Shown: piece after piece, positions 19,254 to 63,477 of the stretch
How positions within the stretch are numbered: the first letter of the stretch is position 1
Layout of the letters: each line of letters starts with the position of its first letter
Assembly: GCA_944324225.1 (NCBI GenBank)
Contig: CALUVL010000004.1
Span: 1-64,000, forward strand
Length of the DNA stretch: 64,000 bases
Origin: Candidatus Gastranaerophilales bacterium
GTDB taxonomy: Bacteria > Cyanobacteriota > Vampirovibrionia > Gastranaerophilales > Gastranaerophilaceae
Direction of reading: 5' to 3'
Notes under the pieces: generated by a model
Databases searched by the model: none
Seen by the model: the letters and a program-made list of their open reading frames with translations, nothing else
Told to the model about the DNA's origin: nothing
Position numbers and translations under genes: made by a program

Positions 19254-20774
<1,521 letters not shown>

Positions 20775-21067
20775 CTAGGGAGATTGAGGTAATGCTTTAG
20801 CATTTTAAAATATGCCTCCATCCCAAGGTCGAAGCTGTTGAAGTTATCTCCTTTTATGCAAATCATTTTAGAGATAATGGAGGCTGAATTAATAAAGTTG
20901 TTTTCAGACTATTTTGTTTTGAGTGTGTGAACACTCATTGCACATTGAAAATTGCATAAGATTATAAGCGTATAAACATTAAATAACAACTGTTATCAAA
21001 TGTAAAAAATACGTAATCATCAATGATTCCAAATACTGCAATCACAGAAATGTGATAGCAAGTACTA
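20775..21067 (+). other. 16S-23S internal transcribed spacer without tRNA
   Basis: A 293-nt spacer. I looked for tRNA-Ile and tRNA-Ala (T-arm GGTTCGA-type and CCA ends) and see none. It holds complementary arms TTATCTCC and GGAG near 20840-20882 and a GAGTGTGTGAACACTC hairpin at about 20920-20935. Confidence 0.7.
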
Positions 21068-24072
<3,005 letters not shown>

Positions 24073-24169
24073 AATAGTTAATCATATAAGATTGGCTAAG
24101 GATATGATGATTGCGATTGCTTATAATCATTATGCAACTTTCAGCGTGCAAGCCACGCATGTCACAAGT

Positions 24170-24288
24170 TTCTTGGTGACAAAGAGTGAGGAAACCACCC
24201 GTTCCCATCCCGAACACGGTCGTAAAGACTCACATCGGCGAAAATACTTGGCGGGCCACCGCCTGGGAAGATAGCTCGTTGCCAAGTC
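24170..24288 (+). rRNA. rrf: 5S ribosomal RNA
   Basis: About 119 nt with complementary ends CTTGGTGAC / GTTGCCAAG, the internal CCCATCCCGAACACGG segment and GGCGGGCCACCGCCTGGGAAGA. It lies about 100 nt after 23S and is followed by a terminator. Confidence 0.92.
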
Positions 24289-28798: not shown

Positions 28799-30709
28799 AT
28801 GGGCGGACCTTTCGGCATATCAGGATTTGATAAAGGTGACAAGAAAATTGGCACGACAACACTTCGCGATCTTCAAATAATGAAGCAATATGCGAATGAA
28901 AAGTTGTCTGCTGAAATGTCCATGCAAAATTCAATAATGATGGCAAGATTAGCACAAATTAGAGCGATGCAGCAAAGCGGACAAAAAGGCGGGAGCGGCC
29001 TGGATGGACTTAACAAAAATTTGGCAAGTCTGGCCAAAACCGGTGTTGATTTGTATAAGAATATATCTTCCTCAAAAAATGCAAACGCTCCACAAACTAC
29101 TAGTCCCACAACAAACGCATCAAAAACTCAGTCGCCGGCTTCTACATCAAGAACACAAGCGCCTAAAGCCACTGATAATAATACTTATACAGGACTTGCA
29201 AAAGGTATTGATACATCTTCTAATGGTACGTTTGATATGAACAGCCTGAATAATATTGAACAGTCGCTTAATGGTAATCAAAATCTTTCATTGCAGGATT
29301 TGAATTCAATGCAGACTCAAATTTCAACATCTAAAGCTGATGTTTCGCAACAACTGACTGATGCTCAGACTAATTTAAGCAATCTTGAAAACCAAAAAGA
29401 AACGGCAACAAAACAGGTTCAAGAACTTCAAGGCTCGATAGGCGAGGCGGAAACTGCGAAAACTGATGCGAAACAAAATCTTGATACAAGCAAAAGCAAA
29501 CTTAATCAATCCGTAAAAGCCCGTGATCAGCTTGATGATCAATTGGCTTCTGTGAATGAGGATTATAAACAAAAATGTAATACTGTAAAACAGGAAGAAC
29601 AGGCCAAAAGCAGTGCTCAGCAGGAAGTTTCAACAGCAAAGGGCGAAGTTGCGCAGGCACAATCCGGGTTGACAATGGCCACACAACAGTTAGCTTCAGC
29701 TCAGGCTACACTTCAAAGCACTCCACAGACAATAAACGGATACCCAAATCCTGCTTATGCCTCGGCTCAAGCCGCAGTTAAAGCTGCAGAGCAGCAAAAA
29801 CAACAAGCTGAACAAGCACTACAAACTGCTGAGCAAAAATTGGATGGAGCAGAACAAAATCTACAAGCTGCTGAGGAGCGTTTAAGTCAGGCGCAAGAAG
29901 CAAAATCTCAGACATTACAAACATTCCAGGAAACAGATTCAAAATACAAAGATATGGCTAAACGCTGCGAACAAATGCAAAAAGGTGTAGAAAACAGTCA
30001 GAAATCTTATGATACAGCAATAGATACATTTAATGAAACAAGTGCAAATTACGAAAAAATGAACACTGAACTTCAGTCACAACAAGGTATTTTGAACCAG
30101 CTTGAAGTCGCTCAATCAAAGATTAACAATTTGCAGCAGGCTTCATCAAAAGTTGGAGAGCTTGAAAACACAGTAAATCAAAAAATACAGACTGCAAATT
30201 CTTCCGGAGAATCTAATTTTGAAAGCGTAAAGAATGATATGATTGCAAACGCAAATAAATCGCAAGGTTGTGGCGCAAATAAAACGATTATGGAGAATTT
30301 GCTATCAGCAAAAGATTATGATTTAGGCAAGTGTACAGGTGAACTTTGGGGTGCACATTTAAATTCGACTTACGGTTCATCAGCCGAATTTGAAGCTCAA
30401 GGGTATATAAAGAATGCTGACGGTTCGTTTACAGATCCGAGAACAGGTGTCACAATGATTAATGTCCTTGGTGATGATAAAACATGGGTTTCACAAGCAG
30501 GATTGTCTGGAGATGGTGAAACCGAAATCTACGGTTCAAAAGCAACAGCAGGGCGTGATTATCCCGGATTGTTTGATGCAATAGAACGTAACCAGCAGCA
30601 AATGGAGGCTCAGATTAGTTTTGACGGATTTGATGAATCCGGCAGTCCTATAATAAAAAGATCAAAAACAAGATTGGATTTAGGTAATAGAAATGTTTCT
30701 TATTTATAA
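28799..30709 (+). CDS. Coiled-coil protein, tandem paralogue 1
   Basis: A 636-residue hydrophilic protein with no signal peptide. Residues 1-57 (MGGPFGISGFDKGDKKIG and onward to RAMQQ) are almost identical to the next gene. A variable Pro/Thr/Ser-rich linker follows to about residue 130. A long Gln/Ala/Lys-rich coiled coil runs from about 160 to 465 and includes a block ARDQLDDQLASVNEDYK shared with the paralogue. A globular C-terminal part follows with GYIKNADGSFTDPRTGVT. Ribosome site AAGGAG. Conserved head, variable linker and tail suggest that the N terminus is a common targeting or assembly signal. No family recognised. Confidence 0.8.
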   Translation: MGGPFGISGFDKGDKKIGTTTLRDLQIMKQYANEKLSAEMSMQNSIMMARLAQIRAMQQSGQKGGSGLDGLNKNLASLAKTGVDLYKNISSSKNANAPQTTSPTTNASKTQSPASTSRTQAPKATDNNTYTGLAKGIDTSSNGTFDMNSLNNIEQSLNGNQNLSLQDLNSMQTQISTSKADVSQQLTDAQTNLSNLENQKETATKQVQELQGSIGEAETAKTDAKQNLDTSKSKLNQSVKARDQLDDQLASVNEDYKQKCNTVKQEEQAKSSAQQEVSTAKGEVAQAQSGLTMATQQLASAQATLQSTPQTINGYPNPAYASAQAAVKAAEQQKQQAEQALQTAEQKLDGAEQNLQAAEERLSQAQEAKSQTLQTFQETDSKYKDMAKRCEQMQKGVENSQKSYDTAIDTFNETSANYEKMNTELQSQQGILNQLEVAQSKINNLQQASSKVGELENTVNQKIQTANSSGESNFESVKNDMIANANKSQGCGANKTIMENLLSAKDYDLGKCTGELWGAHLNSTYGSSAEFEAQGYIKNADGSFTDPRTGVTMINVLGDDKTWVSQAGLSGDGETEIYGSKATAGRDYPGLFDAIERNQQQMEAQISFDGFDESGSPIIKRSKTRLDLGNRNVSYL

Positions 30710-30832: not shown

Positions 30833-32752
30833 ATGGGCGGACCTTTTGGCATATCAGGATTTGATAAAGGTGACAAGAAAATTGGCACGACAACACTTCG
30901 CGATCTTCAAATAATGAAGCAATATGCGAATGAAAAGTTGTCTGCTGAAATGTCCATGCAAAATTCAATAATGATGGCAAGGTTAGCACAGATTAGAGCG
31001 ATGCAGCAGCAAGGTTCCTCAGGCAACGGAAGTTCTATTGAGGGGGTTACTAAAAATTTAGAAAGTCTGGCCACAACCGGTCTTAATTTGTTTAAAAATA
31101 TCAAAGCTTCTAAGGCTAATAATCCTGCTCAAACAAATAATGCAGGACAAACGAATAATTCCCCAGCTGCACCTGCACAAAATTCACCTGCAGTCAGAAC
31201 TCCGGCTGTGCCGTCTTCATCATCGGCTCCGAGCGGGTTGGCTCAAGGGGTTGATACAAGTGATTCATCTGCAACAGTTGACACCTCTGTGCTGGATAAT
31301 ATTTCAGGAAAACTCGACTATGCACATCTTTCAACGGACGATTTAACTTCATTACAGTCGGAACTCGGTACCAAAAAAGTTGAAGTTGCTGAAAAACTTT
31401 CAGCGGCACAGGCCGATTATAGTAATATTCAGGGACAGCACGAGACGGCAGAAGCAAATGTTACCCGGTTAGAAGGTGAAATCGGCACAGCAGAAACTAC
31501 AAAAAAAGATGCACAAAAAACTTTAACAAATAGTAAAAGTCAACTTAATCAATCTACCAAAGCGCGTGATCAGCTTGATGATCAATTGGCTTCTGTGAAT
31601 GAGGATTATAAAGAAAAATGTACAGCAGTGAAAAATTGTGAAAGCGAAAAAACGTCAGCACAAACCGAGGTTTCCAGAGCGAAAACTTCTGTTGCTCAAG
31701 CTGAATCAGGGGTATCAATGGCTACACAGCAGCTAAGTTCGGCTCAGTCAACACTTGCAAGTACACCACAGACGATTAACGGACAGCCTAACCCGCAGTA
31801 TCAGGTTGCTCAGGCTGCTGTGAAGGCGGCAGAACAGCAAAAGACACAGGCCGAAGCAGCTCTTGAAAAAGCTAATAAATCTCTTGAAGAGGCAAATAGC
31901 CGACTTAATACGGCGGAAGAAAATTTGAAAACTGCTCAGGATGCTAAAAATGAAACTTTACAAACTTTGCAGGAAACAGATTCAAAATACAAAGATATGG
32001 CTAAACGATGCGAACAAATGCAAAAGAGTGTCGAAACCAGCCAGGAAAATTATGACACATCACTGGAAACATTAGATACAGCAAATACGAATTATGAAAA
32101 ATTAAATACGGAACTTGAATCCCAGCAGGGAATTTTGAACCAGCTTGAAGTTTATAATGCAAAGCTTGAAAATTTACAACAGGTATCTTCAAGAGTAGAT
32201 GAAATTGAATCCACAATAAATCAACAGCTTCAGGCAAGAGAACAAACGACAGAAACAATGCTTGAACACGCTAACGCTACCGAAGGCTGTTCAGCTACCA
32301 AAACACCGGCTGAAAACTTAATATCAATGAAAGACGGTCAGCAAAAATTGGATCGTTTTGCTTATACAGCATCTAAAATTGAGACAAATGCGGCTGGATT
32401 GTTGTTAGTTGATGAGCACCAGATGAAAGTAAAAAATGCTGATCAGGTAATAAATGAAGATGCATCATTCTTTGAAAAATCAGGATGTATTGCCAACTCT
32501 GACGGTTCATATACAAACCCTGAAAATGGGCTTACTTGGATTGATGTCGGAGGCGGCACCTGGCTTCGTACAGATACTTTGCATAGGCATCAGGAGTATA
32601 TGAATATTGTAAATGAAAAATATCCAGGTGTTGTAGATGCTTTTCACAGGGCACAGGATCAGCTGCCAGATTACGGTGTTGTCGGCTTGACGGCAAATTC
32701 AAATTTAAGAAAATATATGCAGAACTGGAATAACCTGAATTTTATAAACTAA
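30833..32752 (+). CDS. Coiled-coil protein, tandem paralogue 2
   Basis: A 639-residue paralogue of the preceding gene with the same plan: a nearly identical first 57 residues, a Pro/Ala/Asn-rich variable linker, a coiled coil (about 165-470) with the same ARDQLDDQLASVNEDYK block, and a C-terminal domain with GCIANSDGSYTNPENGLTW. The promoter-proximal 55 nt (TGTGGAATATATACTTTATA to AAGGAGCTTTAATG) is also duplicated, so each copy carries its own start signals. Only 123 nt separate the two. A strong terminator begins in its stop codon. Function unknown. Confidence 0.8.
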   Translation: MGGPFGISGFDKGDKKIGTTTLRDLQIMKQYANEKLSAEMSMQNSIMMARLAQIRAMQQQGSSGNGSSIEGVTKNLESLATTGLNLFKNIKASKANNPAQTNNAGQTNNSPAAPAQNSPAVRTPAVPSSSSAPSGLAQGVDTSDSSATVDTSVLDNISGKLDYAHLSTDDLTSLQSELGTKKVEVAEKLSAAQADYSNIQGQHETAEANVTRLEGEIGTAETTKKDAQKTLTNSKSQLNQSTKARDQLDDQLASVNEDYKEKCTAVKNCESEKTSAQTEVSRAKTSVAQAESGVSMATQQLSSAQSTLASTPQTINGQPNPQYQVAQAAVKAAEQQKTQAEAALEKANKSLEEANSRLNTAEENLKTAQDAKNETLQTLQETDSKYKDMAKRCEQMQKSVETSQENYDTSLETLDTANTNYEKLNTELESQQGILNQLEVYNAKLENLQQVSSRVDEIESTINQQLQAREQTTETMLEHANATEGCSATKTPAENLISMKDGQQKLDRFAYTASKIETNAAGLLLVDEHQMKVKNADQVINEDASFFEKSGCIANSDGSYTNPENGLTWIDVGGGTWLRTDTLHRHQEYMNIVNEKYPGVVDAFHRAQDQLPDYGVVGLTANSNLRKYMQNWNNLNFIN

Positions 32753-40919: not shown

Positions 40920-42395
40920 TTAAACATTTGCAACAATTTCTATTCCGAAATTGCATCCGATTTCTTCTCTTGCGAGAACCACAACGTTATTCAGGTAGTT
41001 TGAAAGAAGTGTGAAAAACAAATGTCTTAATTCCAGAGGTACAAGAATTTTTGGTTCTTCTATTTCCAGTTGTTTTGCTTTTTTGGCTATTTTTTGTGCT
41101 AATTTTTCTGCAAAATCGCCGTCTATTTTTATTATGAAATCATCGTCTTCTTCAAAACTCGGCATAAATGCGTCTAATGTTTTTTCTGAGACTTCTATAA
41201 GACTTATGACTCCGTTTTCGTTTGCGTAGTTTGAGCAGATCCTTCTTGAAAGTGCTAAGCGAACTTTTTTCAGAAGATCTGATTTTGCGCCTTCTTCTGC
41301 AAAATCATTCATTTTTTCAAAAAGATAAGAGATATCTTTTATTGAAACTCTTTCTTTTATAAGGCTCGTCAAGACAAATTTGAGGTCTGAAAGTGTCATA
41401 AAATCAGGAATTAAATTCGCAACAAGAAATTCATTTTTTTTACTTACGACATCTATATATTTTTCTATGTCGCTGTAGTCCATTAATTCGTCTATATATT
41501 TTATTGCTGAATATTCTAAAGCTCTTGCAATATATTCGGCCCCGTTAATTCCTTTTTCCCAGAAATCTTTTGTTTTGCTTTTTTCTATCCAGACAATTTT
41601 TTTGCCTGTTATAAAGTCTGTATCGTAGATAGAATTTTTGATTTTTGTTTCAAGGTGAAGGTCGTCTGCAAAATACATTGTGTAATTCGGATAAACACAT
41701 GCTCTGTAGACATCAAGGCCTCGAATTTTTATTGAAAATTCATAAGGGTTCAGATTGTCGTCATCCTGAAAAATAATTTTAGGAATAATATATCCAAGCT
41801 CCTCAGTTAATTTCAATCTTGTTTTTACTGTTTCAGCAAGAAGTGTTTCCTGTGCATATTCGGATTCGTTTTCTACATATTCAATAAGTTCTTCACTCAA
41901 ATGAATTGCAAGTTTTTCTTCTGTTAATTTTTCAAACATTACATCAGGCGATGTTGTTTTGGCTAATGTCAATTTTAAATCATCAAGTTCTTTCAGGTTC
42001 GCAGAAATTTTGTCATTAAGTTTTTTCCTGTTAACTGAAGCGGGGGCTTCTTTCTCAAGTTCTTTTTTTATTTTTGTAATTTTATTCTGTTGATTTTTTA
42101 TTTTTGCTTGAATATCAAGGCATGCTTCATAAGGTGAAAGTTTAGGGGAGAGCATTTTTTCCATCTGGCTTTTGAATGTGGAAATGTTTATAACATCAGA
42201 GGTTGAAAATTCTTCTTCCTGTTGAGTTTCGCTCATAAAAATGCAGTTGAATTTTATCCCGTCATCTGTTTCGATTTCGTTCATGCTGTATAATTCCCAG
42301 CCGTTCATTGACATTTCGTTCAGAAGGTTTTGAAGTTCCTGCATGTTTTCTCCCGAACAGGTTTTTATAATATACTGCATTTTTTTGTTAAACAT
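40920..42395 (-). CDS. Soluble FlhA/SctV C-terminal-domain homologue with DUF4177-like N terminus
   Basis: A 491-residue protein. Residues about 6-55 (MQYIIKTCSGENMQELQNLL and NGWELYSMN) resemble DUF4177. A Lys/Glu coiled coil covers about 90-150. From about residue 200 to the end the sequence follows the cytosolic domain of FlhA/SctV export gates: LGYIIPKI, then the LNPYEFSIKIRGL strand, GAEYIARALEYSAIKY, SDLKFVLTSLIKERVSIKDI, then RLALSRRICSNYA and LRHLFFTLLSNYLNNVVVLAREEI. The eight membrane helices of true FlhA are absent. It lies 4 nt from udp. Homology is by pattern recognition only. The combination is unusual and its function unknown. Confidence 0.7.
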   Translation of the reverse strand: MFNKKMQYIIKTCSGENMQELQNLLNEMSMNGWELYSMNEIETDDGIKFNCIFMSETQQEEEFSTSDVINISTFKSQMEKMLSPKLSPYEACLDIQAKIKNQQNKITKIKKELEKEAPASVNRKKLNDKISANLKELDDLKLTLAKTTSPDVMFEKLTEEKLAIHLSEELIEYVENESEYAQETLLAETVKTRLKLTEELGYIIPKIIFQDDDNLNPYEFSIKIRGLDVYRACVYPNYTMYFADDLHLETKIKNSIYDTDFITGKKIVWIEKSKTKDFWEKGINGAEYIARALEYSAIKYIDELMDYSDIEKYIDVVSKKNEFLVANLIPDFMTLSDLKFVLTSLIKERVSIKDISYLFEKMNDFAEEGAKSDLLKKVRLALSRRICSNYANENGVISLIEVSEKTLDAFMPSFEEDDDFIIKIDGDFAEKLAQKIAKKAKQLEIEEPKILVPLELRHLFFTLLSNYLNNVVVLAREEIGCNFGIEIVANV

Positions 42396-42398
42396 TTC

Positions 42399-43175
42399 TT
42401 ACTCCTGATTTCTATCTTTTTCGATTAGAATTTTTAATGCTTCAATGGCGGTTTTGATTGCTCTGTCAGTGTCGTGGATTACCGGATTGTCGAGATTTAA
42501 TTTTTCTCTTTCCTGATTTGCCACTGTCAAAAATACCGACCCTACCTTCACATTCAGTGCGCTCCCTACAACAAACAGGGCTGCTGATTCCATTTCTGAA
42601 GCTTTGCATCCCAATCTTTTCCAAGCTTCCCATTTGTTAATTAATTCATAACTTACGGGAGATTTTTCAGGGCTGTGCTGTCCGTAAAAAGAATCTTTGC
42701 ATTGAACTATGCCTGTATGGAACGGGTTATTTAATTTTTTGCAGGCTTCGACGAGCGCATTTGTGATATCCAAATCTGCAACGGCAGGGAATTCTATAGG
42801 AGCGTATTCCCTTGAAGTCCCTTCCATTCTGACAGCTCCGGTTGCGACAACGATATCTCCGCCTTTAACATCAATATCAATGCCTCCGCAGGTGCCGACA
42901 CGTATGAATTTTTTTGCGCCGATTTTGACAAGTTCTTCTAACGCAATTGAGGCTGATGGCCCGCCGATGCCTGTTGATGTAACTGTTACTTTTACTCCGT
43001 TCAGGAAACCGGTATATGTTGTATATTCACGCCTGTCCGCAACAAGTTCCGCATTATCAAAATACTCTGCAATTTTTTTGCACCGTTTCGGGTCTCCGGG
43101 CAAAATTACATATTGCCCGACGTCACCATCTTTCAACCCTATATGGTATTGTTCACCGTTTTGTGAATATTTCAT
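42399..43175 (-). CDS. udp: Uridine phosphorylase
   Basis: A 258-residue nucleoside phosphorylase of the NP-I family that splits uridine with phosphate into uracil and ribose 1-phosphate. The phosphate-binding GDPKR (residues 27-31), the FIRVGTCGG segment near 90 and the nucleoside-site [11 protein letters not shown] near 190 are diagnostic. Full length, with an AAGGAT ribosome site. It sits between ompH (26 nt upstream) and the FlhA-like gene (4 nt downstream). Closely related purine phosphorylases share the fold; the SEMESAALF form favours uridine. Confidence 0.9.
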
Positions 43176-57282: not shown

Positions 57283-57525
57283 ATGGAACAAAACAAAATG
57301 CCGTTCGGGCATTATGAGGATTTAATTTCCGAACTTGAATATAAGCTTGAAGATTTGGTATCTCATATTAAATTTATGTCGAATGCAACTTCCGGATGGG
57401 GAAATGATTTTGATTTTTCTTCAAAAGATATCAATGCACTGAGCCAAACGCTTTATGACAAGGCCGGTGCGGCTCTTTTTGTGACTGCCAAACTTAAAAC
57501 AGCTTTAAATCATCTGAATGTTTAA
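57283..57525 (+). CDS. Small hypothetical protein under the palindromic promoter
   Basis: An 80-residue acidic helical protein (DLISELEYKLEDLVSHIKFM; later ALSQTLYDKAGAALFVTAKL). No family recognised. AAAGG ribosome site. It is the gene driven by the consensus promoter at 57215 and so the likely target of the small XRE regulator. Its stop overlaps the convergent stop of the FliI-like gene by 3 nt. Confidence 0.7.
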   Translation: MEQNKMPFGHYEDLISELEYKLEDLVSHIKFMSNATSGWGNDFDFSSKDINALSQTLYDKAGAALFVTAKLKTALNHLNV

Positions 57526-58868
57526 ATATCCACATCCTTCATCATATCAATAAGCGTGCTTACGGTTGTGTCCATGCTTACAATATCCGAGGTTCTCTGC
57601 TGTAAGAATGCGTTAATTTTCGGCATCATTTCAATTGCAACATCCAGTTTTGGGTTTGTGCCCGGCTGGTACATACCAACATCAATCAAGTCTTTGTTTT
57701 CTCTGTACAAAGCCATGATTGCACGCATTTTTCCGGCAGCGGCCTTGTGTTCAGGCGTTGCTATTGCGGACATAAGCCTTGAGATACTTCCAAGAACGTC
57801 AATTGCCGGATAATGGTTCATCTCTGCAACTTTACGTGACAAAAAGATGTGCCCGTCAACAATACCTCGAACAATGTCGACTATCGGGTCTGAGATATCA
57901 TCCCCTTCCATCAATACAGTATAGAGTGCTGTAATAGAACCTTTAGGACTGTTTCCGGCTCTTTCAAGAACTTTTTGAAGCCATGAAAAAATTGACGGCG
58001 GATAGCCTTTCATCGTCGGAGGTTCGCCGATTGAAAGACCAACTTCGCGGCCTGCCATTGCACATCGGGTTACAGTGTCTGTCATAAGGAAAACTTTTTT
58101 GCCTTGATCTCTGAAGTATTCGCAAACGGCAGTGGCCGTAAGTAAAGCTTTTTGTCTTATCAAAGGTGGCTGGTCGCCTGTAGAGCAAACAAGAACCGAT
58201 TTTTTCATACCTTCTTCACCCAGAGAATCCTCTACGAACTCTTTAACTTCCCTGCCGCGTTCGCCGATTAGTGCAACAACATTGACGTCTGCGTCTGAGT
58301 TTCTCGCAATCATACCAAGAAGTGTACTTTTTCCGACTCCTGAGCCTGCAAACAACCCCAAACGCTGTCCGCAACCCATTGTCATACAGCTGTCTATGGC
58401 GCGAACTCCTGTTGAAAATATTTCAGTAATAATCGGTCTTTCAAATGGCCCCGGTGGTGGTCCTTCAATCGGTTTCCAGAGAGCTCCTGTTGTATCAAGC
58501 GGTTTGCCGTCAATCGGCTCGCCCATCGGATTTATGAGTCTTCCAAGAAGAAAATCGCCAACCGGTATAATAATAGGTTTGCCCATTGAAGTTACCAAGC
58601 TTCCCTGACCTATGCCGTTTCCGTCAAGAAGCAAAAGCAACTGTGCTGCTTCACCTTTAAAAGCAACAACTTCTGCCGGCTTTTTTTCACCTGTTTCTGT
58701 TTCAATATAACATAAATCCCCGATTTTAAGCCCCGGAAGTTTAACTTCTACAGTTAAACCCAGAAGTTTTGACACGGTTCCTTTAAACTTGAAAAGAGTA
58801 GTTTCGTTGAGCTTTGCTTTGACCCGCTGTTTCAGGTCGATTAGTCTGCTGTCATCAATGTTTTGCAT
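57522..58868 (-). CDS. FliI/SctN-type export ATPase (orphan)
   Basis: A 448-residue AAA-type ATPase of the flagellar/type III secretion family, related to F1 ATPase beta. Walker A GSGVGKST is at residues 175-182. Downstream are GERGREVKEF, DTVTRCAMAGREVGLSIGEP with the conserved arginines, then GYPPSIFSWLQKVLERAG and a C-terminal helical domain. The secretion-type TRCAMAGREVGL pattern separates it from rho and from true ATP synthase. No fliH, fliJ, fliF or other flagellar gene is in the window. TTGTTT-17-TATAAT ends 6 nt before the ATG, so the transcript is probably leaderless. Confidence 0.9.
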   Translation of the reverse strand: MQNIDDSRLIDLKQRVKAKLNETTLFKFKGTVSKLLGLTVEVKLPGLKIGDLCYIETETGEKKPAEVVAFKGEAAQLLLLLDGNGIGQGSLVTSMGKPIIIPVGDFLLGRLINPMGEPIDGKPLDTTGALWKPIEGPPPGPFERPIITEIFSTGVRAIDSCMTMGCGQRLGLFAGSGVGKSTLLGMIARNSDADVNVVALIGERGREVKEFVEDSLGEEGMKKSVLVCSTGDQPPLIRQKALLTATAVCEYFRDQGKKVFLMTDTVTRCAMAGREVGLSIGEPPTMKGYPPSIFSWLQKVLERAGNSPKGSITALYTVLMEGDDISDPIVDIVRGIVDGHIFLSRKVAEMNHYPAIDVLGSISRLMSAIATPEHKAAAGKMRAIMALYRENKDLIDVGMYQPGTNPKLDVAIEMMPKINAFLQQRTSDIVSMDTTVSTLIDMMKDVDI

Positions 58869-60511: not shown

Positions 60512-61009
60512 ATGAAAAGAATTATATTACACTGGACGGCCGGCGAGTATTATCCGACGGCGGCCGAGAGAGAATATTACCATTTTTTGGTAGGCGGGGA
60601 CGGAAAAATTTATAAAGGAAAATTCAGACCAGAGGATAATTTGGTATGTGTAAAGGGCTGTTATGCCGCACACACGGGAGGCGGAAATACAGGTTCAATC
60701 GGTATTTCATTATGTGCAATGGAAGGCTTTCGTGACAAAGAACATTTCGGAAAATATCCAATAACACCTGTTCAGTTTGAAGCAGCAATGCAATTGTCCG
60801 CTAAACTTGTACTCAAATACGGAATTAAGACTGATAAATCCGGAGTTATGACACATTACGAATTCGGCCTCAGACATCCTGACACAACCAGTTACGGCAA
60901 GCCGGACATTACTTTTATTCCGCCGTATCCATGGGTTGGCAAAAATGAAGCGGGAGATTTTATTCGTTCAAAAATCAGATGGTACAAAGCAAAAATGAAA
61001 GAGGTTTAG
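60512..61009 (+). CDS. N-acetylmuramoyl-L-alanine amidase (phage endolysin type)
   Basis: A 165-residue amidase_2-like enzyme that would cut the amide bond between MurNAc and the peptide. The zinc-site His7 in ILHWTAG, AAHTGGGN (around residue 53), MTHYEFG and the GKPD near residue 131 fit the family. No signal peptide, as expected for a phage lysin that depends on a holin; none is seen. It is followed 2 nt later by a virion-protein gene. Confidence 0.85.
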   Translation: MKRIILHWTAGEYYPTAAEREYYHFLVGGDGKIYKGKFRPEDNLVCVKGCYAAHTGGGNTGSIGISLCAMEGFRDKEHFGKYPITPVQFEAAMQLSAKLVLKYGIKTDKSGVMTHYEFGLRHPDTTSYGKPDITFIPPYPWVGKNEAGDFIRSKIRWYKAKMKEV

Positions 61010-61011
61010 TT

Positions 61012-62532
61012 ATGGAAACAGATTTTTACAATTTATCCGGCGGTATCAACCTTGCACTTACAAAGACAGAACTTGGTATTGATACAAAAAAGATGTACTG
61101 GTCGGACAGCAAAAATGTTGAAATATACAAAAACAGAGGCATTGCAAAACAGGCAGGCAATAGCTTGCTCTGCACTGTTCCTGATAATGAGGAAATAACA
61201 GGGCTTCATGAAATGTTTTACAGAGATGATTCAAAACTTGTCATAACAACAGTTTCAGGTAAAGTCTATGTTTATAATCCTGCCAACGGCTCAATGACAA
61301 AGCTTAATAAAACATTGAAGGGAAAAAAGCCAAGATTTGCCTCATTTTTAAACGGAGTGCTTTGTATTACGGAAAGCGACGGATTGTTTTATATAAAAAA
61401 TGATTCTTCGTTTAGTGTTGTGGAATGTAATCTTAAAAATTCTTCAGGCTTAACGGTAACTGGGGATGTTTTGACAGTTTACAAAAGCCGTGTATGGGTT
61501 GCAAGCCAGTCCACGATTTATTATTCTGCGCTCGGGTCTTACACGGATTTTACCACCCAGAATGACGCCGGATATATAAGCGATTTTCATACTGACACAG
61601 CAGAAATAACTGCATTGAAATCATACAAGGATTATCTGGCTATTTACAAAAAGAATATGGTTTATCTTTTGACAGGAACAAGCCCTGACGATTTTGCAAT
61701 TGTGCCATTTGCTGATAGAGGAACTATTGCCCCGAGATGTGTTGTGAATGTAGATAACAAACAGTATTTTTTATCTTCCGGTATATATGCGCTTGAGCAA
61801 GTAGGAGAACTAAATCAAATCCAGCTGGGGTCTGAAATATCACTTAAAATAAAACCGGAGTTTGACAATCTTGACACAAACAAACTCTCCGAGGCTATCT
61901 GTGTACATTATGAAAATAAAAATCAGATGTGGTTTTTCCTGCCATATGTGGCTGAAGGTTATTACAAAACTATCTGGATAAATGATTATGTCAACAAAGC
62001 CTGGTACAAGAGAGTTGTGCCTCAAAATATTACTACAGCAGCTTTGTTTGACAATTATGTGGTGAGTGCCGATAATGCAGGAAAAGTTTACAGAGAGGCT
62101 TACGGTTCAACTTTTAACGGGGATCCGATAGATTTCATGTGGAAATCCCCCTTCCTTTCAATCGGATCTCCTCATCATAGAAAAGTTATTGATGAGTTTT
62201 ACTTTATTCTTGATGACGCATATGATAACAACTTTAATTTTTCTGTTTACAAAGACTATGACAGTCAATTAGGCGATGATCCGGAAAAGATTTATTCTGT
62301 GCATTATGACCAGTTAATCTGGGCAGATGACGAAACTTCCGACAATCTTCCCTGCCACTGGGCGGAAGATGATGCTGATATTCCTGTTTGGCCGGCTAAT
62401 AAAGATGTGCTTGAAAAGGCTGAAATATCAGAGGCTAATTATGCCGTACAATTGTGCGTTGAAGGCACAGAACAGACAGAAGATGTCGCAATTATCGGGC
62501 TTCAATTCCGTGAAATATATAACGATGACTAG
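61012..62532 (+). CDS. Phage virion-associated protein (repeat-beta type)
   Basis: A 506-residue protein starting at the ATG with GAGG upstream; an earlier in-frame ATG inside the amidase gene is unlikely. Rich in beta-hairpin repeats with GKVYVYNP, DGLFYIKN, SRVWVASQSTIYYS and KNMVYLLTG, a propeller-like pattern seen in phage structural proteins that sit near the capsid gene. The C-terminal part has acidic clusters. No exact family is named. Its place directly before the capsid gene supports a head-tail or tail role. Confidence 0.7.
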   Translation: METDFYNLSGGINLALTKTELGIDTKKMYWSDSKNVEIYKNRGIAKQAGNSLLCTVPDNEEITGLHEMFYRDDSKLVITTVSGKVYVYNPANGSMTKLNKTLKGKKPRFASFLNGVLCITESDGLFYIKNDSSFSVVECNLKNSSGLTVTGDVLTVYKSRVWVASQSTIYYSALGSYTDFTTQNDAGYISDFHTDTAEITALKSYKDYLAIYKKNMVYLLTGTSPDDFAIVPFADRGTIAPRCVVNVDNKQYFLSSGIYALEQVGELNQIQLGSEISLKIKPEFDNLDTNKLSEAICVHYENKNQMWFFLPYVAEGYYKTIWINDYVNKAWYKRVVPQNITTAALFDNYVVSADNAGKVYREAYGSTFNGDPIDFMWKSPFLSIGSPHHRKVIDEFYFILDDAYDNNFNFSVYKDYDSQLGDDPEKIYSVHYDQLIWADDETSDNLPCHWAEDDADIPVWPANKDVLEKAEISEANYAVQLCVEGTEQTEDVAIIGLQFREIYNDD

Positions 62533-62592
62533 CACTGCTCATTTATATAATTAGTACTTACACTTTAAAACCAAGAAAGGGAAAAGAAAATT

Positions 62593-63477
62593 ATGGCAGA
62601 CACAAATTATTACTCAGCTTTTATTCCAGAAATATGGAGTGCAAAACTTAACACTATGCTTGAAAAAGAGTGTGTAATGCTCCAATGTGTCAACAGAAAC
62701 TATGAAGGTGAAATTAAAAATCAGGGTGACAAAGTAAAGATTATTACACCTGCTCCTGTAACAATTTCAACACTTACAACAGGTTCAATTTCTTATAGCG
62801 AATTAGAACCTACATCAACAGATCTTGTAATTGATCAGAAAAAATTCTTCGCATTTAAGATTAATGATGTCGCTCAGGTTCAGGCGAATACAGATATTAT
62901 GGAAGCACATCTTCAAAATGCTAAAAATGCTATTGAAGAAGTGCAGGATGCCTATCTTCTTTCAATGCATGCAAATGTAGATGAAGCCAATATTGTCGGC
63001 TCTGATTCTGCTCCTGTAACCCTGGATAAAACAACAATATACCAGCAGTTCGTAAATCTTGCAATGAAACTTAAGGACTCTAATGCCGTTAAAGCCGGCA
63101 AACGTCCGTGGGTGGTTATTAACCCTCTTGTTGAATCTTATCTTCTTCAAAGTACAGAATTTATTGGAGCAAATAATGTTGCGGATGAAACCCTTAGAGA
63201 AGGAGCAATCGGCAGAATTGCCGGCATGGATGTTTTAGTCAGCACAAATTTAACTCCGGTTTCAAACAATTATTACATTCTTGCTGGTACAAATGATGCA
63301 ATCACATTTGCTTCACAGCTGGCAAAAATCGAAAGCTTGCGAGACAAAGACAGTTTTTCAGATTTGGTTAGAGGGCTTTACCTCTATGGTGCAAAAACTG
63401 TTCAGCCTAAAGCACTGGCTAAAATGATAGTAAAAGATCCGACCTCTGTATCAGAAACAGATTCTGAGGGGGTATAG
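62593..63477 (+). CDS. Phage major capsid protein (P22 coat/HK97-fold type)
   Basis: A 294-residue coat protein. Features of P22-like coat proteins are the N-terminal FIPEIWSAKLNTMLEKECV, the GDKVKIITPAP strand, the SYSELEPTSTDLVIDQKKFFAFKIND segment and the ADETLREGAIGRIAGMDVLVSTNL segment. It would build the procapsid shell. A terminator sits 28 nt after the stop, typical for a highly expressed coat gene. No scaffolding protease is visible. Confidence 0.85.
   Translation: MADTNYYSAFIPEIWSAKLNTMLEKECVMLQCVNRNYEGEIKNQGDKVKIITPAPVTISTLTTGSISYSELEPTSTDLVIDQKKFFAFKINDVAQVQANTDIMEAHLQNAKNAIEEVQDAYLLSMHANVDEANIVGSDSAPVTLDKTTIYQQFVNLAMKLKDSNAVKAGKRPWVVINPLVESYLLQSTEFIGANNVADETLREGAIGRIAGMDVLVSTNLTPVSNNYYILAGTNDAITFASQLAKIESLRDKDSFSDLVRGLYLYGAKTVQPKALAKMIVKDPTSVSETDSEGV

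Follow-up and report, generated by a model that had tools for sequence, protein, structure and literature searches.

A 64,000-nucleotide stretch of Candidatus Gastranaerophilales bacterium (GenBank assembly GCA_944324225.1, contig CALUVL010000004.1, positions 1 to 64,000; hereafter the window, C4:1-64000 of the 1.93 Mb, 99% complete genome G000) encodes a protein of 491 amino acids (aa) that is a complete cytosolic domain of the export-gate protein FlhA (FlhA-C) behind a new N-terminus, without membrane helices. The genome also carries a flagellar-type gene set in the absence of flagellin, which we call system I; the canonical flagellar set of its relatives is system II. We propose, with a probability of roughly 0.5, that the soluble protein is a cytosolic accessory adaptor or regulator of system I, a filament-less export machine. 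The gene and its parts are listed below; the D1-D4 borders, set in Salmonella numbering, are approximate.

40920..42395, minus strand: gene of the soluble FlhA-C protein, an FlhA paralogue, ATG start, 491 aa
42222..42395, minus strand: N-terminal domain, residues 1-58, beta-alpha-beta-beta, DUF4177-like, by conserved residues, profile search and fold prediction
41955..42134, minus strand: predicted two-helix hairpin (AlphaFold2), residues 88-147, where the membrane domain and linker would stand
41688..41915, minus strand: FlhA-C D1, first part, residues 161-236, with S167 at the glycine of the GYXLI motif (alignment)
41544..41687, minus strand: FlhA-C D2, residues 237-284, with T263 at the F459 position and D260 at the D456 position (alignment)
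41484..41543, minus strand: FlhA-C D1, second part, residues 285-304, with R291 at the T490 position (alignment)
41247..41483, minus strand: FlhA-C D3, residues 305-383, the best conserved domain (alignment)
40926..41246, minus strand: FlhA-C D4, residues 384-490, diverged (alignment)

The Pfam FHIPEP profile (PF00771) matches residues 128-480 with an expectation value (E) of 1.4e-48, over profile positions 321-653 of 657; since the match starts at position 321, the membrane half is absent from the protein. The TIGR FlhA profile (TIGR01398) covers residues 136-491 (5.2e-44, 150.6 bits versus an equivalog cut-off of 772 bits) and the SctV TIGR profile covers residues 160-490 more weakly (1.3e-24), both scores lying far under the equivalog cut-offs because half of the protein is missing. 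A sequence search of solved structures found B. subtilis FlhA-C (3mix, 9.5e-24). An AlphaFold2 model built from 42 orthologues has a mean predicted local distance difference test score (pLDDT) of 83, and Foldseek matched it to FlhA-C and SctV-C, with 6ch2_C as the best hit (E 5.4e-22, target-normalised template modelling score 0.83). The four-domain fold is thus common to the soluble protein and FlhA-C of Salmonella (3a5i, 6ch2) and B. subtilis (3mix), and the cytoplasmic domain of the injectisome proteins SctV, InvA and CdsV has the same fold (Foldseek E ~1e-16 to 1e-19). The first-pass annotation had named a structural match as a check and assigned the C-terminus to the FlhA/SctV cytosolic domain; the assignment stands, with a length of ~330-360 residues instead of ~290. 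Its view that the membrane helices have been replaced, leaving a soluble protein, also holds: no membrane segment was found (hydropathy maximum 1.27, no window at 1.6), and the same scan gave seven segments in the full FlhA of this genome.

The N-terminal domain resembles DUF4177 (PF13783) at 15.4 bits and E 0.023, where the gathering score is 25 bits, and the family matched 5 of the 42 orthologues (best E 5e-4). Residues 1-58 are predicted to fold as beta-alpha-beta-beta, with a pLDDT of 90 when modelled alone. Seven residues (L25, N26, M28, W33, E40, I52 and F53) are invariant across the 42 orthologues, and the domain is as conserved as the remaining protein. A fold search with it returned weak matches to KCTD5 (the best, E 0.02), NikR and dodecin domains, and this likeness to small domains known to oligomerise is only a hint. 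Behind it, the predicted helices 88-115 and 121-147 form a helical hairpin, in keeping with the coiled coil described earlier.

The soluble gene is present in 55 of 58 genomes of the order, at nearly the same rate without flagellin (27/29) and with it (28/29); the three that lack it are G015, G016 and G055, the last of which is incomplete. A second sample drawn from the class showed the gene in 192 of the 193 order genomes with any match, while 42 genomes of other families gave matches of FlhA strength only and no soluble protein; 34 further genomes had no match and stand outside this count. The ratio of nonsynonymous to synonymous substitution rates (dN/dS) against congeners is 0.04-0.08, the same as for the full-length FlhA of system I (FlhA-I), and indicates strong purifying selection on the gene. 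Tree support is 100/100 both for the clade of soluble proteins and for the flagellar FlhA of system II (FlhA-II), and the soluble clade attaches at the fork that separates FlhA-I from the remaining sequences. By identity the closest relative is FlhA-I, and the exact parent copy of the clade is unsure because its branch is long. The protein is an old FlhA paralogue specific to the order. It is extremely improbable that it is what remains of a flagellar FlhA since lost. Half of FlhA is indeed gone and the genome has no flagellin, but the gene forms its own fully supported clade apart from FlhA-I and FlhA-II and coexists with flagellin in 28 genomes; its dN/dS, its distribution and its full-length open reading frames throughout the order rule out a degenerate remnant and bear out the earlier proposal that the domain was repurposed.

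In Salmonella FlhA, chaperone-cargo complexes bind through a dimple that includes D456, F459 and T490 (PMC8166844), and the open-close motion requires G368 of the GYXLI motif (PMC9431611). We compared these positions in the 42 soluble orthologues, taking the Salmonella row from the sequence-search alignment to solved structures. The D456 position retains D in 40 of 42, whereas the F459 position holds T (28), S (8), N (4) or L (2) and the T490 position mostly R, S, K or E. The GYXLI glycine is replaced in all 42 (S in 41, T in 1). Unlike FlhA, then, the soluble protein has lost this glycine and two of the three chaperone-pocket residues in addition to its membrane domain; at the same pocket positions FlhA-II retains F and T and FlhA-I retains Y and T/A. 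The soluble protein and FlhA-I share 34% identity in D1 (first part), 16% in D2, 36% in D3 and 19% in D4, as compared to 33%, 17%, 35% and 31% between FlhA-I and FlhA-II; identity to FlhA-II is 24% in D1 and 29% in D3. Because FlhA-I and FlhA-II are likewise dissimilar in D2, the extra divergence of the soluble protein sits in D4 and the pocket residues and not in D2 overall. Residues R193, G201, W269, E360, R379, R457 and E478 are common to the soluble protein, FlhA-I and FlhA-II, and a conserved motif at W279/G282 (DFWEKG) is specific to the soluble proteins and absent from FlhA-I. By alignment, the protein appears to retain the ring-building parts (D1 and D3) and to have lost the chaperone pocket.

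These residues bear on the two roles named in the first-pass annotation, cargo receptor or regulator. A free cytosolic receptor that gathers cargo or chaperones for the system I gate, possibly with an altered pocket, would draw on the known function of FlhA-C as the chaperone docking platform of such gates (PMC5932034, PMC8166844), and both the retained fold and the conserved D456 position are consistent with it. We nevertheless regard it as unlikely, since F459, T490 and the GYXLI glycine are not kept and D2, on the pocket side, is only 16% identical to FlhA-I, although the two full-length FlhA types are themselves only 17% identical there. Retention of the ring-contact domains together with loss of the pocket speaks against a plain receptor and for an adaptor or regulator, which leaves the second of the two roles in play. 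A rival explanation is a decoy or dominant inhibitor that would join the FlhA-I ring through D1/D3 and, having neither channel nor GYXLI hinge, would keep the gate shut until released. The ring-contact domains are the best kept, replacement of G368 by C in Salmonella favours the closed, inactive form (PMC9431611), and another protein of the genus derived from FlhA-C, described below, has no D2 at all; yet the N-terminal domain is under more constraint than a plain decoy needs, and we consider this explanation quite unlikely.

For the adaptor or regulator that we favour, the conserved faces of D1 and D3 would associate with the FlhA-I ring, or the soluble protein would build a ring of its own. 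It would then offer partners its N-terminal domain and hairpin, or modulate gate activity, and chaperone-substrate complexes would not dock in the classical pocket. The machine served would comprise FliE, FliF, FliG-like, FliH, FliI, FliJ-like, FlhA-I, FlhB, FliO, FliP, FliQ, FliR, FliM/N-like and rod/hook-like proteins. Components of system I were identified by profile searches in draft genomes, and in this genome they are found at four places:

C4:123991-130094: fliE-fliF-fliG-like-fliH-flhA block of system I
C1:127135-130862: fliM/N-like-fliO-fliP-fliQ-fliR of system I
C2:148735-156977: flhB, fliJ-like, weak fliK-like and hook/rod-like genes of system I
57522..58868 of the window, minus strand: FliI-type ATPase (T3SS_ATPase_C), the sole one found in the genome and part of system I, which the soluble protein is proposed to serve

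The full-length FlhA-I gene lies at C4:128073-130061 in the order fliE-fliF-fliG-like-fliH-flhA. The first-pass annotation had named the lack of a full gate in the genome as support for a new role, and a full gate is there: FlhA, FlhB, FliP, FliQ, FliR, FliF and FliI, the set that characterises a flagellar-type export apparatus, are all present. What is missing is the flagellin filament that characterises a bacterial flagellum. Flagellin (PF00669) matched in 29 of the 59 genomes searched, with no match in this genome or in 28 others of the order. The case that the annotation gave as a refutation, a mere paralogue in a genome with an ordinary flagellum, is rejected, as the full FlhA is present with no flagellin and no canonical flagellar set. 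The fliG position between fliF and fliH is occupied by a 352-aa protein (L005:16097-17155) without a convincing Pfam match, and extra copies of the fliG-like N-domain are found at L074:11843-12406 and L076:1621-2604.

In nearly all flagellin-bearing relatives examined, FlhA, FlhB, FliF and the ATPase of the type III secretion system type each occur twice. The two FliF types are a canonical one (E ~1e-50 to 1e-57) and a divergent one beside FlhA-I (E ~1e-30 to 1e-36); flagellin-less relatives retain the divergent type and, in all but a few cases, hold single copies. From these copy counts, doubled with flagellin and mostly single without it, we infer that system I is a machine of the secretion type in its own right and no remnant of a flagellum. 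In G041 its locus encodes two FlgE/F/G-D1 rod-like proteins, flgB-like, flgC-like, a lytic transglycosylase, fliE, fliF, two fliG-like, fliH, flhA and fliI; the names flgB, flgC, fliE, fliH and transglycosylase come from reading the sequences, aided by family searches. FlhA-I is 59-66% identical in three other families of the class, 44-48% in others, and absent from two. Among the partial flagellar sets described for Gastranaerophilales, the shared genes named by Di Rienzi 2013 (PMC3787301; flgG, flgC, fliF, fliH, flhA, fliI, flgE, fliP, fliQ, fliR and flhB) match those of system I. That paper and Soo 2014 (PMC4040986) treat such genes as flagella, whether complete or incomplete, and not, as we do, as a separate second machine; the sections consulted make no mention of the soluble FlhA-C. 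A literature search that excluded subscription journals found no report of a soluble FlhA-C paralogue or of a type III system in this order.

The gene neighbours of soluble FlhA-C are an Omp85/BamA-like gene, OmpH, a phosphorylase (udp) and GH77, in agreement with the bamA, ompH and udp neighbourhood described before, and the detached domain is, as had been claimed, encoded apart from the flagellar genes here.

42399..43175, minus strand: phosphorylase-family gene (udp), 3 bp upstream of the soluble gene, a neighbour only in close relatives

A shared operon logic with udp and bamA was rejected, as the order udp-soluble gene-malQ occurs only in close relatives and does not extend to distant ones. 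The soluble gene of one genus (G041, G046) lies directly upstream of the flagellar gene fliJ, and in G041 (L060:3989-9454) it is followed by fliJ-fliK-flgD-flgE. In G049, of the same family, it is not linked to fliJ.

Several of these observations weigh against a role in system I. The soluble gene stands apart from those of system I; its sole type III neighbourhood is the flagellar (system II) operon of that one genus, and the closest neighbours here, udp and malQ, hint at no function. Because system I occurs in all order genomes examined, co-occurrence cannot discriminate, and because G015 and G016 hold system I without the soluble gene, the gene is not essential to it. That system I secretes is itself something we infer. 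The FlhA-C fold might instead have been recruited to a task outside type III export and have gained a new specificity from the DUF4177-like domain; the lack of export-gene linkage in most genomes, the protein's own W279/G282 motif and its retention in flagellin-less genomes agree with this. The gene was not found, however, in class members without FlhA, and it is linked to fliJ in one genus, so that we hold such recruitment to be distinctly improbable.

Two other proteins of the class carry parts of FlhA-C. One, of 591 aa (C6:11373-13148, L007:11373-13148), has a fliG-like N-domain, a pair of membrane helices and an FlhA-C with a deletion of D2, the domain that forms one side of the chaperone pocket. 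Its N-terminal ~170 residues are 25-27% identical to the fliG-like protein (E 3e-9 to 9e-18), and it is full-length in several congeners. The clade nests inside the FlhA-I of the order (enclosing group 96/86) and evolves faster (dN/dS 0.2). The other is a 289-aa FHIPEP fragment protein in a different family of the class (G086, L109:469-1338), encoded directly downstream of a full-length FlhA-I.

A likeness exists to FlhX of Campylobacterota, a soluble paralogue of the C-terminal domain of FlhB with a link to FlhB self-cleavage. In both cases the cytosolic domain of a gate protein occurs as a separate soluble protein; the gate protein is a different one, and FlhB self-cleavage has no counterpart in soluble FlhA-C.

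Elsewhere in the window, a complete rRNA operon (16S, 23S, 5S) lies at 19254-24287 on the plus strand. Tandem genes at 28799-30706 and 30833-32749 (plus strand) encode two proteins, 636 and 639 aa long, whose N-termini are nearly identical (MGGPFGISGFDKGDKKIGTTTLRDLQ...). Phage-like genes at 60512-63474 (plus strand) encode an amidase, a 517-aa protein without a match and a capsid-like protein, and perhaps mark the edge of a prophage at the window end.

In flagella and injectisomes alike, FlhA-C serves as the sorting hub. A natural detached form, found throughout an order and strongly selected, would allow one to ask which functions of FlhA-C are separable from the channel. It also draws attention to a flagellar-type machine without a filament in common gut bacteria; the genes of this machine had been counted earlier as whole or broken flagella. 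We give about even odds to the wider picture in which Gastranaerophilales, and probably much of Vampirovibrionia, have a dedicated non-flagellar export machine made from basal-body parts that outlasted the loss of flagella, to which the order added a soluble FlhA-C that reads no chaperones through the classical pocket, detached or pocket-less forms of FlhA-C having arisen more than once in the class. If system I does secrete, it would be an export route so far undescribed in these bacteria.
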